The position numbers and the translations under genes were made by a program. Under the pieces are notes generated by a model. That model had not been told where the DNA came from. It saw nothing but the letters and a program-made list of their open reading frames with translations, and did not search any database. From Aureimonas jatrophae (lineage in GTDB: Bacteria; Pseudomonadota; Alphaproteobacteria; Rhizobiales; Rhizobiaceae), in NCBI RefSeq assembly GCF_900104035.1, contig NZ_FNIT01000007.1, positions 62,001-126,000 on the forward strand: DNA of 64,000 bases, read 5' to 3'. Below are positions 11,626 through 56,408 of the stretch, one piece after another. Position 1 is the stretch's first letter, and each line of letters opens with the position of its first letter.

Positions 11626-11641
11626 TGTTTCACGTGAAACC
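11626..11641. other. parS-like centromere site 1
   Basis: TGTTTCACGTGAAACC: 15 of 16 positions of the symmetric ParB target TGTTTCACGTGAAACA, with a 14-bp perfect palindrome. Intergenic, between the rpsA terminator and the rpsA stop. ParB/Spo0J nucleates here for chromosome segregation. About 43 kb from the predicted origin. Confidence 0.85.
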
Positions 11642-24433: not shown

Positions 24434-24449
24434 TGTTTCACGTGAAACC
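24434..24449. other. parS-like centromere site 2
   Basis: TGTTTCACGTGAAACC, identical to site 1 (15 of 16 with the symmetric ParB target). It lies 6 bp after the hisA stop codon, in the gap before the Uma2-type gene. About 31 kb from the predicted origin. Confidence 0.88.
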
Positions 24450-39767: not shown

Positions 39768-39783
39768 TGTTTCACGTGAAACC
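39768..39783. other. parS-like centromere site 3
   Basis: TGTTTCACGTGAAACC, identical to sites 1 and 2, 28 bp after the Lrp stop. Intergenic. About 15 kb from the predicted origin. Confidence 0.88.
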
Positions 39784-49622: not shown

Positions 49623-50135
49623 ATGTCGCAGACCGAACCCAACGGTGCCAACGGCGCCACCGCCGCCAACGGCGCGGCCCCGAGCCTCAACATCCTCGCC
49701 CAGTACATCAAGGATCTCTCGTTCGAGAGCCCGAAGGCGCCCGCCTCGTTGCGCGGCCAGACCCGCGCGCCCGGCATCAACATCGGCGTCAACGTCGGCG
49801 CCAACGCGGTGCAGGGCGGCGACAACGAGTACGACGTGCGCCTGACGCTGAACGCGCGCGCCGGCGAGGGCGCCGACACGCTGTTTCACGTGGAACTCGA
49901 GTATGGCGGCGTGTTCCGTCTCGAGCACTTTCCCCAGGAGCACATGCTGCCGCTCCTGTTCATCGAGTGCCCGCGTCTTCTGTTCCCGTTCGCGCGCCAG
50001 ATCGTGGCGGACGTCACGCGCAACGCGGGCTTCCCGCCGCTGATGATCGACCCGATCGACTTCGCCGCCCTGTTCCAGCAGCGCGTCGCCGAGGAGCGCG
50101 CGCGCCAGCAGGTCCAGCCGGTCACCAACGCCTGA
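49623..50135 (+). CDS. secB: Protein-export chaperone SecB
   Basis: 170 aa; ATG at 49623 with GGGAG upstream. SecB core: [47 protein letters not shown] and [37 protein letters not shown]. Homotetramer that keeps precursors unfolded and delivers them to SecA. The codons for the LFHVEL part contain a parS-like site (49882-49897). Confidence 0.97.
49882..49897. other. parS-like centromere site 4, inside secB
   Basis: TGTTTCACGTGGAACT. It matches 15 of 16 positions of TGTTTCACGTGGAACA, the reverse complement of the widely conserved ParB target TGTTCCACGTGAAACA. It lies within the secB coding frame, about 5 kb from the predicted origin. Confidence 0.75.
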
Positions 50136-52122: not shown

Positions 52123-52908
52123 TTGGACGTTTATGCCGGAATCGACGGGACCGGACCGCTCGACAACGCGAGCTACCGCACGCAGTTCGCCAGAAGCTTC
52201 GTCAGCCGCCTCCAGCGGGAGCGCTCCTGGGGCAAGAGCTACTACCTGCGCGGCCCCACGATGGACGGGCAGGAAACGCGGCAGCTGTCGCGGCAGATCC
52301 TACGCGAGGTGGAGGGCGACCTTCACCGCACCACGGCGCGACGCGTGGAGCGCGTGGTCGTGGCGGGCTACAGCCGGGGCGGCGCGGCGGCGATCCGCCT
52401 GTGCCGCGAGCTCGGGCGCCACGGACACGCCGTCGACGCGCTGCTCCTGTTCGACGCGGTGGACATGTCACTGACGGTGGCCGCCGACCTCGTGCCCGCC
52501 AACGTGCGCACCTGCTTCCACGCCCGTCGCGACCCGGCCTCCTTGTCGCGCTCCTTCTGGGACAATTGCGGGCGCGGCGCCGAGGACGCCTCGCGCACGC
52601 GCTACGTCGAGCACTTCTTCCGTTGCACCCACGGCGGCATGGGCGGCGTGCCGTGGACAGTGGCGGACTCGGACGGCGTCATCAACGAGGCGGCCACGGA
52701 CCGCACCCTGTCGGGGCGCATCGTGCGCGGCGCCGGCCTGCCGGGCCTGCCGTTCGCCGCCCTCAACGAGATCCACCGCTACTCCAGCCGCACCAGCGTG
52801 ACGCTCGCGCAGGACCGGATCGTGTCGGCGCAGGTGGGCGCCTGGATGTTCGGCCATCTCGACCGGGTGCTGGCCGCCAAGCGCCGCACGCCCGCCCTCA
52901 CGAGCTGA
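52123..52908 (+). CDS. Alpha/beta hydrolase-like protein (DUF2235-like)
   Basis: 261 aa from a TTG at 52123 with GGGAG at the right spacing; no ATG would keep the first strand. [20 protein letters not shown], the nucleophile elbow [20 protein letters not shown] (Ser in GYSRGG) and the catalytic Asp candidate in LLLFDAVDM suggest the same family as DUF2235/T6SS-type lipases. Late HGG in [11 protein letters not shown] holds the candidate His. No secretion signal and no type VI genes are in the window, so an effector role is not indicated. Its last 11 bp overlap coaE tail to tail. Confidence 0.7.
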
Positions 52909-53506: not shown

Positions 53507-54342
53507 GGCCGGGCGATATCGGCGAGAACGAGATCGCGCAGCGCTTCCGTCACGACGGGACGCCGCCCGAACCACCGCTCGAAGCCCGGCACCGCCTGGT
53601 GAAGAAGCATGCCGAGCCCGTCGGCGCAGCGCAGCCCGCGTGCGCGCGCCGCGCGCAGCACCGGCGTTTCCAGCGGCACATAGACGATGTCGGTGACCAG
53701 CGCGCCGTCGGGCAGGGCGGAGAGGTCGGGATTGGCCTCGTCCGGCGCGGCGGGCCGCGTGTTGACGAGAAGGTCCGCGGCGGAAAGAACGGCGCCCTCC
53801 GCCTCCTGCCCGATCCCACGCACCCGCTCGCCGAAGCTGTCCGCCAGCGCCTCGGCGCGGCGCGGCGTGCGGTTCGACACCGTGACGCGGCCGATCCCCG
53901 CGTCCAGAAGCGCGTGGACGACGCCCCGCGCCGCGCCGCCCGCGCCCAGAACCAGCGCGTGGGTCGCATCGCGCCAGCCCGCCAGGCGTTCGTCGAGATT
54001 GGCCGAAAAGCCGTAGGCATCGGTGTTGCCGCCGATGAGCCGTCCGCCCTCGAACCAGAGCGTGTTGACGGCACCGATGGCCTCGGCCGCGCCATCGCAT
54101 CGGTCGGCGGCGGCAAACGCAGCCTCCTTGTGCGGGATCGTCACGTTGCCGCCCGCCCAGCCACGAACCGCCAGCTCGCGAAAGAAGAGGTTCGCCCGCT
54201 CCGGCTCGACCGCGACGCGCTCGTAGGTGCCGCCGAGCCCCATCTCGCGCAGCCAGGTGCCGTGGATCAGCGGCGAGCGCGAATGGTGGATCGGCCAGCC
54301 GCACACAAAGGCGCGCGGGCTCTCCGCGAGCCTCTCAGACAT
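53503..54342 (-). CDS. aroE: Shikimate dehydrogenase (NADP+)
   Basis: 279 aa. Substrate part: [20 protein letters not shown] (SxS motif) and [20 protein letters not shown] (catalytic Lys in PHKE). Cofactor part: [19 protein letters not shown] and [12 protein letters not shown] (NRTxxR, NADP preference). Overlaps maf upstream by 8 bp and coaE downstream. Confidence 0.97.
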
Positions 54343-54934
54343 CGATCTCGCCCATCGCGCGCAGCTCCGCCAGAAGCGGCAGCAGCGGCAGGCCGATGAT
54401 CGTGAAGAGGTCGCCCTCGACGCGGCTCATCAGGCGGATGCCCGGCCCCTCGATCTGATAGGCGCCGACCGAGCCGAGCGCCGCCTCGCCCGCGAGCGCG
54501 AGGTAGCGTCCGATCTCGGCCGGCGTCAGCTCGCGCATCGTGAGGCGCGCGGTGGAAACGTGGCGCCACAGCGTTTGTCCGCCCCGCACCAGCGCCACCG
54601 CGCTGTGGAGCTCGTGCGTGCGGCCCTGCAGCTGGAGAAGCGCGCGGCGCGCCGCCTCCATGTCGGCGGGCTTGTGCAGCGTCTGGTCGCCGAGCGCCAG
54701 CGTCTGGTCGGCGCCGATCACGAGCGCCCGGGGAAAGCGCTCCGACACCTCGCCGGCCTTCGCCTCGGCGAGAACCTCGGCCACCGCGTCGGGCGTGGCG
54801 CCGCTGTCCTTGAGCGGCGCCTCCAGCGCACGCTCATCGAGCTGCGAGGCGTGAACCGAAAAGCGCAGACCCGCGTTTTCGAGCATGTGACGGCGATGGA
54901 CGCTGCCCGATGCCAGGACGATCTCGGATGCCAA
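54335..54934 (-). CDS. maf: Maf-like nucleoside triphosphate pyrophosphatase
   Basis: 199 aa from a TTG at 54934, preceded by GGGAGGA; this start gives the expected [20 protein letters not shown] with the SGSxxRR signature. Further marks: [20 protein letters not shown] and [20 protein letters not shown]. Hydrolyses non-canonical or modified nucleotides. First gene of the maf-aroE-coaE operon, transcribed leftward away from the predicted origin. In many relatives a ppsR (DUF299) gene sits between maf and the origin; none is present here. Confidence 0.93.
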
Positions 54935-55376
54935 GGGGTCATTCCTCCCACGGGTTCGGCTCGACCGCTCCTCTCGCACGGACTCGATTCGGGGGTCCAG
55001 CGCAAGCGCGGGCCCCTGTTGTGCCCGTGATTCCGGCCCCCCTGTGGGCGAAGGCGGACAAAGGGGGGACTTGTCCCAGGGGGTCGCGGCAGCCCTGTGC
55101 GTCCGTGACGATTCATCCCCAAATGCGTGACGCCACGGCTTGTGGGGGCACGCTTGTGGACAACGGGCACAGCGGCGGAAAACGGCGGTGGCTGCAGGGG
55201 TTGCCGCGGCGCGCCGGCGCCCTTGTTTGATCGAGCCGGTGAATTCCGGCTATCCACCGACTCTAAGAATCAGAATCCCTCTTTAAAGGGATTTCTTTTT
55301 TGAAGAGGCGCCCCGGGATAACGGCGGCGCCGGGCCGAGCGGACCTCGCGCCGTTCCCAATCTTCGAGGACCCGCG
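54935..55376. other. Predicted chromosomal replication origin (oriC)
   Basis: 442-bp gap between maf (leftward) and hemE (rightward), without a credible gene. Next to hemE is where the mapped origins of Caulobacter crescentus and Sinorhizobium meliloti lie. DnaA-box-like words: TGTGGACAA at 55155-55163 (8 of 9 to the complement of TTATCCACA), CTATCCACC at 55250-55258 (7 of 9), TCATCCCCA at 55113-55121 (7 of 9). An AT-rich stretch at 55261-55303, rare in this genome, could be the unwinding element. It contains the inverted repeat AATCCCT-CTTTAA-AGGGATT (55274-55293) and a T-run. Genes on both sides point away. Confidence 0.7.
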
Positions 55377-56408
55377 ATGACCGAACGAGCCCTTCTGCGC
55401 GTCCTGGGCGGCGAGAGCGTCTTTCCTCCGCCGGTCTGGCTGATGCGTCAGGCCGGGCGCTACCTCCCGGAATACCGGGAGACGCGGGCGCGGGCCGGAT
55501 CGTTCCTGGACCTGTGCTACGACCCGGCGCTCGCCACCGAGGTGACGCTGCAGCCGATCCGGCGCTTCGGTTTCGACGCCTCGATCCTGTTCTCCGACAT
55601 CCTCGTCATCCCCGACGCGCTGCACCGCAACGTGCGCTTCGTGCAGGGCGAGGGTCCGCAGATGGACCCCATCTCCGTCCACGAGATCCGCGACCTCGAC
55701 CCGAGCCACGCCGACGCGCATCTGGCGCCCGTGATCGCGACGGTCGCGCGCCTGCGCGCCGAGCTGCCGGCCGAGACCGCGCTGATCGGCTTCTGCGGCG
55801 CGCCCTGGACGGTTGCGACCTACATGATCGCCGGGCACGGCACGCCCACGCAGGCGCCCGCCCGCTTGTTCGGCTACGAACACCCGGACGCCATGGACGA
55901 GCTGCTCGCGCTTCTGGCCGAGATGAGCGCCGACTATCTCGTGCGCCAGCTCCAGGCGGGCGCCGACTGCGTCCAGATCTTCGACAGCTGGGCCGGCGTC
56001 CTCGACGACGCGAGCTTCCGGCGCTGGAGCATCGCCCCCACGCGGCGCATCGTGGAGCGCGTGCGCGCCAGCGTTCCCGGCGCGCGCATCATCGGCTTTC
56101 CCAAGGGCGCGGGCGCGATGCTCGAAGCCTACCGCGAGGGAACCGGCGTCGACGCGCTCGGCCTCGACTGGGGCGTCCCGTTCGCGCAGGCGCGCGAGCT
56201 GCAGCGCGGCGGCGCCGTCCAGGGCAATCTCGACCCCTTGCGCCTGATCGCGGGCGGCCAGGCGCTGGACGACGGCGTGCGGGCGATCCTCCACCATCTC
56301 GGCGCCGGGCCGCTGGTGTTCAACCTCGGCCACGGCATCACGCCCGAGGCGCCGATCGCGCATGTGGAGCGCCTCCTCCAGCTCGTGCGGCACGACAGGC
56401 TGGCGTGA
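55377..56408 (+). CDS. hemE: Uroporphyrinogen decarboxylase
   Basis: 343 aa. N-terminal signature [20 protein letters not shown], then catalytic Asp region [38 protein letters not shown], and [15 protein letters not shown]. Converts uroporphyrinogen III to coproporphyrinogen III. First gene to the right of the predicted origin; hemJ follows 390 bp later. Confidence 0.98.

Follow-up and report, generated by a model that had tools for sequence, protein, structure and literature searches.

Organisation of the maf-hemE locus

The stretch of Aureimonas jatrophae DNA analysed (64,000 nucleotides, referred to as the window; C4:62001-126000 of genome G000, a 4.59 Mb draft in 25 contigs that are not orderable) carries maf and hemE on either side of an intergenic gap of 442 bp (C4:116935-117376; Table 1). 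The genes maf, aroE and coaE are encoded on the reverse strand and hemE, hemJ, rho and mnmE on the forward strand, as assigned from ORFs and Pfam domains and, for hemE, by sequence match; the closest named relatives of hemE were from Aureimonas and Aurantimonas species. The intergenic position next to hemE and the strand switch, both put forward in an initial annotation that predicted a chromosomal origin at this site, were confirmed. An ORF left of coaE (52123-52908) lies back on the forward strand.

The COG1806/DUF299 gene (Pfam Kinase-PPPase) was looked for as the other neighbour of the gap and was not found there in the window, where maf directly adjoins the gap. It was present between maf and hemE in 68 of 110 hemE loci, anywhere in the locus in 72 of the 110, and in none of the 30 Aureimonas/Aurantimonas-like loci. 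A changed boundary gene is also described for the Wolbachia origin (PMC1914354; papers are cited by PMC number, from excerpts of their text), and the missing neighbour was therefore not treated as excluding a hemE-linked oriC.

The gap measures 442 bp in the window, 440 bp in its nearest relative and 533-1075 bp in the other 28 Aureimonas/Aurantimonas-like loci, the first two being the shortest of the 30. Two further observations were made during the comparison of loci. One locus titled Bacillus subtilis strain SK6B4 (L058, JAHREI010000001.1) has a Rhizobiaceae-type maf-DUF299-gap-hemE arrangement, and its label looks wrong. Two hemE matches (G007:C1:254631-255653 and G021:C154:25803-26834) contain one in-frame stop each (TAG and TGA, respectively), which could be an overrun past the gene end.

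Table 1. Features of the predicted origin region and parS-like sites, in window coordinates.
Feature	Position	Strand	Basis
maf, left boundary gene	54338..54934	-	Pfam Maf 2e-47
maf-hemE intergenic gap, predicted oriC	54935..55376		ORFs and sequence
GGACTCGATTC, conserved maf-side block with two GANTC (54981, 54986)	54980..54990	+	23-gap alignment
Weak DnaA box TCATCCCCA	55113..55121	+	2 mismatches
Best DnaA box TTGTCCACA	55155..55163	-	1 mismatch
Unwinding-side DnaA box CTATCCACC, pointing toward the AT-rich stretch	55250..55258	+	2 mismatches
GACTC, CcrM-type GANTC at fixed position	55259..55263		103 rows
Predicted duplex-unwinding element	55264..55303		Least stable 40-mer of 64 kb
AAGAATCAGAAT, tandem NAGAAN hexamer; overlaps GAATC at 55267 and 55273	55265..55276	+	103 rows
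Non-conserved, terminator-like inverted repeat with T-run	55273..55294	+	Stem and tail
hemE, right boundary gene	55377..56408	+	ORF and sequence match
parS-like site (C4:73626)	11626..11641		1 mismatch
parS-like site (C4:86434)	24434..24449		1 mismatch
parS-like site (C4:101768)	39768..39783		1 mismatch
parS-like site (C4:111882)	49882..49897	-	1 mismatch

DnaA boxes, CtrA and IHF sites

The three DnaA-box-like words of the initial annotation proved to be exactly those sites of the gap that lie within two mismatches of TTATCCACA. They form a cluster above chance (three, against a mean of 0.31 in dinucleotide shuffles; p = 0.004). Their description as few and imperfect was also right, only the box at 55155 being within one mismatch of TTATCCACA. 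The box at 55113 fits KMRTCCCSM, quoted as the Caulobacter weak DnaA-box consensus in PMC8235120, a pattern that matches once in the gap and 19 times in the window; at this position the aligned congeners (23 gaps) mostly carry a better box, often TCATCCACA, which is degraded to TCATCCCCA in the window. Outside the genus, the box at 55250 is poorly conserved as a box.

The absence of a CtrA pair (TTAA-N7-TTAA) from the gap held even when one mismatch was allowed, and no IHF site was matched in the gap by the pattern used; the combination of CtrA and IHF sites of the Cori type is accordingly not seen in the window's gap. A near-CtrA word, TTAA-N7-TTCA, was observed close to the maf start in 11 of the 23 aligned gaps (for example L089, L090, L100 and L011) and is missing from the gaps of the window and its nearest relative.

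Helical stability and inverted repeat

The AT-rich stretch noted previously is real: its 40-mer (55264-55303) has the lowest stability in the 64 kb according to a nearest-neighbour table with values of the SantaLucia type. Stability was compared over 106 loci (L001, the window, L019, L024, L075 and L052 (<3.9 kb) left out; the window's own locus, L086, included; close duplicates retained). In 92 of the 106, the window's own included, the locus-wide stability minimum (40-mers) fell at the conserved element described below, and in 104 of the 106 the 40-mer at the element was within the top 0.5% of instability. The inverted repeat with a T-run was likewise present, as a stem plus tail; among the 23 aligned gaps the stem was seen by eye in that of the window and in just one other, that of the nearest relative (L087), and it is probably incidental.

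A conserved element with a fixed GANTC site

By alignment of the congener gaps (n=23), conserved blocks were located at GGACTCGATTC on the maf side, at the DnaA box, in a TGTG-rich part and at 55236-55277. Within the last of these lies a footprint (55250-55277), missed in the initial annotation, that consists of the CTATCCACC DnaA box, GACTC and TAAGAATCAGAATC, followed by AT-rich DNA. GANTC sites, which had also been overlooked, are concentrated in the gap: it holds seven, compared with a window-wide rate of 0.36 per 442 bp, and none of 1000 shuffles reached seven.

The element was followed through 106 distinct aligned rows, the window included, of which 103 were used; L019, L024 and L075, with seven to nine mismatches and a displaced hemE, were left out, and L110, the match of which is probably out of register, was retained. 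The A residues at 55266, 55268, 55269, 55272 and 55275 were invariant (103/103), and the N of the fixed GANTC (C in 94 rows, G in eight and A in one) was the most variable base of the site, which is the pattern expected if the site matters as GANTC. At the Rhizobium, Mesorhizobium, Brucella and Bartonella loci, GACTC and the A-rich part were better kept than the DnaA box. Of 100 shuffled upstream stretches, five came within four to five mismatches of the core, so ten real rows at four to five mismatches, and one at six, are less secure; a stricter element pattern matched 89 of the 106 rows. Four congeners (G005, G011, G013 and G014) are without the exact core, and their gaps (L102-L105) are without the fixed GANTC, which is therefore not indispensable. 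The element looks like the edge of the unwinding stretch, carrying a CcrM (GANTC) site at a fixed position.

Distribution of the 17-bp core

The 17-bp core of the element was found in 28 of 61 genomes (the window's own included), with one copy each, against three matches of the reversed control; by hand comparison, all 28 were on the strand of hemE and no more than 420 bp upstream of it. Broken down by kinship, the genus accounts for 17 matches in 21 genomes (counting the window's own), the remainder of the family for 11 in 16 and other families for none in 24. In a sample of 394 family genomes, which overlaps the 61-genome sample, the core was present in 258, apparently once in each, with six control matches (both counts by eye from the table). 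From these 258, 30 loci were fetched, none of them among the 28, and hemE was located 59-79 bp downstream of the element in all 30, so that the core was upstream of hemE in 58 of 58 genomes checked; one further match (G202, outside the 58) is at the same contig place as that of G432, where hemE is not adjacent. Over the 103 aligned rows, the distance from the element to the estimated hemE start ranged from 57 to 414 bp. In the other families, hemE-upstream stretches of 20 of the 24 genomes (one stretch of only 150 bp) gave best core matches with four to eight mismatches, and the strict element is therefore family-level in the samples used.

Loci from which hemE has moved away separated the element from the gene. 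At L019, L024 and L075, hemE occurs without maf and without the element, and the genome of each contains exactly one element match (≤1 mismatch) elsewhere. In G431 and G432 this match is flanked by the DUF299 gene on one side and, on the other, by hemJ (UPF0093) and then rho (by Pfam in G432, as an ORF by eye in G431), and hemE was absent from the 3-kb element locus in both; in G433 a second hemE sits at the element. The element stayed in place when hemE moved away and thus belongs to the locus, not to hemE.

The organisms concerned were noted as follows. In Pseudaminobacter soli and Mesorhizobium ephedrae, hemE (L019 and L024) is gone from the origin locus (L227 and L226), at which maf, DUF299, the element, hemJ and rho are found together. 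A Hyphomicrobiales MAG (L075, L228) has hemE twice: one copy sits at the origin element, and the other lies elsewhere and lacks it.

Chromosome-scale polarity, parS and parAB

On contig C4 of G000, the cumulative skew was noisy and not V-shaped at the gap, falling through it to +14 kb and being lower again by +46 kb. A weak KOPS-like changepoint was obtained at C4:130-134 kb with GGGNAGGG (12-17 kb right of the gap, which is at 117 kb) and at 98.8-112.5 kb with the 9-mer (4-18 kb left of the gap); the GGGNAGGG changepoints were on the hemE side in three of four genomes. Complete congeners gave a clearer picture. In G005, the KOPS-like 10-mer GGGCAGGGCG was on the forward strand at 42 of 47 sites in one arm and on the reverse strand at 52 of 54 in the other (Fisher 2.5e-20; positions were listed for 100 of the 101 sites and the remaining one was deduced from the totals; 26 matches of the reversed-pattern control vs 101). 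The KOPS-like strand switch, read over the whole chromosome, spans 424,319-453,747 (29 kb) and includes the hemE locus at 426,338; skew was read over 200 kb. In G003, skew (20-kb samples, approximately every 100 kb) and KOPS-like counts flip sign at ∼1.02-1.06 Mb, with hemE at 1.042 Mb: samples running from 2.9 Mb across the numbering start as far as 0.82 Mb had negative skew, those up to 1.06 Mb were of mixed sign, and between 1.06 and 2.82 Mb 15 of 22 were positive. In G007, skew was read over 200 kb about the gap and had a local minimum 7 kb from hemE.

In all four genomes (G000, G003, G005 and G007) a local skew minimum was 4-16 kb to the hemE side, toward parAB, and the summed minimum was at +12 kb; skew and polarity signals therefore place the origin only to ∼20 kb, and skew alone would also permit a site near parAB. 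C4, which makes up 220 kb of the 4.59 Mb of G000, holds six of the ten parS-like sites of that genome; the reversed control gave none. All four sites of G005 are at 418-441 kb, two of the three of G003 at 1.009 and 1.030 Mb, and in G007 two of three are no more than 55 kb from the gap. The parA- and parB-like ORFs of G000 (C4:127501-129956) are 10.1-12.6 kb right of the gap.

Probable assignment of the origin and proposed mechanism

The prediction of an origin between maf and hemE is supported by the polarity switches in congeners, by parS-like sites and parAB nearby and by an apparently single-copy, locus-bound element, and the gap is very probably the DnaA-dependent oriC of the main chromosome. 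Against this count the presence of only one DnaA box within one mismatch, the skew and the weak, pattern-dependent KOPS-like changepoint of the window's own contig, and the exact core, missing from 4 of 21 genomes of the genus and from all 24 of other families. DnaA would bind at 55155, the box closest to consensus, and at the two weak boxes, 55113 and 55250. From 55250, the box strand of which points toward the AT-rich stretch, an anchored oligomer would open 55264-55303, where helicase would be loaded for both forks of a bidirectional origin. A CcrM-like methylase (C13:252316; N6_N4_Mtase and RAMA domains) and a GcrA-family protein are encoded in G000. This CcrM would methylate the three GANTC sites at the border of the unwinding stretch; after each firing these would be hemimethylated, and they may tune re-initiation or transcription from the origin. 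An action of CcrM on the window's origin is an inference. The Caulobacter and Agrobacterium reports call for caution about such a role: CcrM is reported as not required for control of initiation in Caulobacter (PMC3973325), and in Agrobacterium its depletion changed ori2 with no obvious effect on ori1 (PMC11514494).

Alternative explanations

The element might instead be a promoter that drives the rightward hemE-hemJ-rho genes, perhaps under CcrM/GcrA control, with the origin elsewhere. The short distance to hemE in the 30 fetched loci and the GcrA and CcrM genes of G000 fit this, as does the TAGAAT of congeners, which resembles a -10 hexamer; the element also still precedes hemJ-rho after hemE loss, so that it could serve whatever gene comes next. 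The two roles, promoter and origin, are compatible. A sigma-70-like site was not found in 54900-55420 by a scan of little power here, the spacing to hemE varies widely over the 103 rows, the element stayed behind while the three displaced hemE copies lack it, and it is the least stable DNA of most loci. A promoter dedicated to hemE was rejected, since the element stays when hemE leaves; a promoter in place of an origin is considered unlikely. It is very unlikely that replication starts 4-16 kb to the right, near parAB, the gap being merely origin-proximal: the skew minima, the GGGNAGGG changepoints and the presence there of a parS-like site and parAB would all agree with this, but the identified genes right of hemE all run rightward and bias the (uncorrected) coding-strand skew, alphaproteobacterial origins are described beside hemE (PMC1914354), and the conserved unstable element sits in the gap.

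Two further readings concern the form of the sequence itself. A terminator-like stem with a T-tail exists and could end a small RNA that crosses the gap, like CcnA, which is made from the Caulobacter origin (PMC8959179); the restriction of the stem to the window and its nearest relative, and the lack of any Rfam match at gathering score in the gap, make this highly improbable, and the terminator of an origin RNA was rejected because the stem is not conserved. The element could also be a canonical DnaA-trio basal unwinding system (BUS), by the rules of which (PMC8287927) a box with at most two mismatches lies 0-16 bp from the trios. Such a box is found at 55250, with a 6-bp spacer and four NAN triplets, the middle A of which is invariant (103/103 rows), and canonical box-strand NTN matches occur in 61 of 103 related gaps (10 of 103 when shuffled), so that a canonical BUS may be present in relatives at another place in the gap. 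The rules call, however, for at least three A-centred triplets opposite the box strand, and in the window the A-centred triplets are on the box strand, with no box-strand NTN match in its gap. The grammar of box, spacer and NAN triplets alone is not evidence, since it occurs at nine places in the 64 kb (55250 and eight others). The trios of H. pylori (3'-GAT-5') occupy the lower strand, which DnaA binds, and the box strand reads CTA (PMC8235120). Membership, accepted at first on form, was rejected on this polarity, an argument that rests on H. pylori, not B. subtilis; a canonical BUS is rather unlikely, and the element, though not classed as a BUS, may work like an unwinding module.

Comparison with known systems

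With the maf-hemE gap taken as the origin, its location beside hemE is ordinary for alphaproteobacteria, in which this arrangement is known (PMC1914354); the conserved element and its methylation site deserve testing. The gap resembles Cori of Caulobacter crescentus, located between hemE and COG1806/DUF299, in being intergenic and hemE-adjacent and in having an AT-rich patch, DnaA boxes (weak ones included) and GANTC sites, which are reported in that origin (PMC3973325). Unlike Cori, the window has maf instead of DUF299 as left neighbour, and its gap has no CtrA pair and, with the pattern used, no IHF match, compared with five CtrA sites and one IHF site described for Cori (PMC1914354). The hemE-side origin regions of other Rhizobiaceae (Rhizobium, Mesorhizobium, Brucella and relatives) share GASTC-WWAGAA-WYA-N-AA or close variants upstream of hemE, with the element at the least stable DNA of most loci; many of them, unlike the window, have perfect TTATCCACA boxes, often near -322, -235 or -380 from hemE, and most retain the DUF299 gene.

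In the open-licence PMC literature, no origin of Aureimonas was found (judged by title), nothing in print on DnaA-trios together with GANTC, and for oriC and DnaA-trios in Alphaproteobacteria only work on Epsilonproteobacteria; a family-wide element with a fixed GANTC was likewise not found there. The analysis provides a precise, testable origin for the genus Aureimonas and a 17-bp landmark in approximately two thirds of the sampled family genomes, locus-bound in the genomes seen with a displaced hemE. With a fixed GANTC beside the unwinding stretch, the action of CcrM on DnaA-dependent origins becomes testable in the family.

A DnaA box beside a short-period repeat and then AT-rich DNA is shared with the BUS/DnaA-trio origins of B. 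subtilis and H. pylori, the polarity of the repeat to the box being opposite to that described for H. pylori. In E. coli, GATC sites in the unwinding repeats tune re-initiation or origin transcription. The 13-mers of E. coli oriC (consensus GATCTNTTNTTTT, quoted in PMC1914354) are alike in that adenine-methylation sites lie inside unwinding repeats, whereas the methylase of the window's genome is of the CcrM type (GANTC) and the repeat is a hexamer. As a tentative proposal, on which we would lean to doubt, Rhizobiaceae origins might have in common a single opening element peculiar to the family, made up of a weak DnaA box, a fixed CcrM site and an NAGAAN tandem, the A-rich strand being the box strand; CcrM methylation of that site would gate opening of the main chromosome by DnaA. 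If true, this would be a GANTC counterpart of the GATC-bearing unwinding repeats of E. coli.
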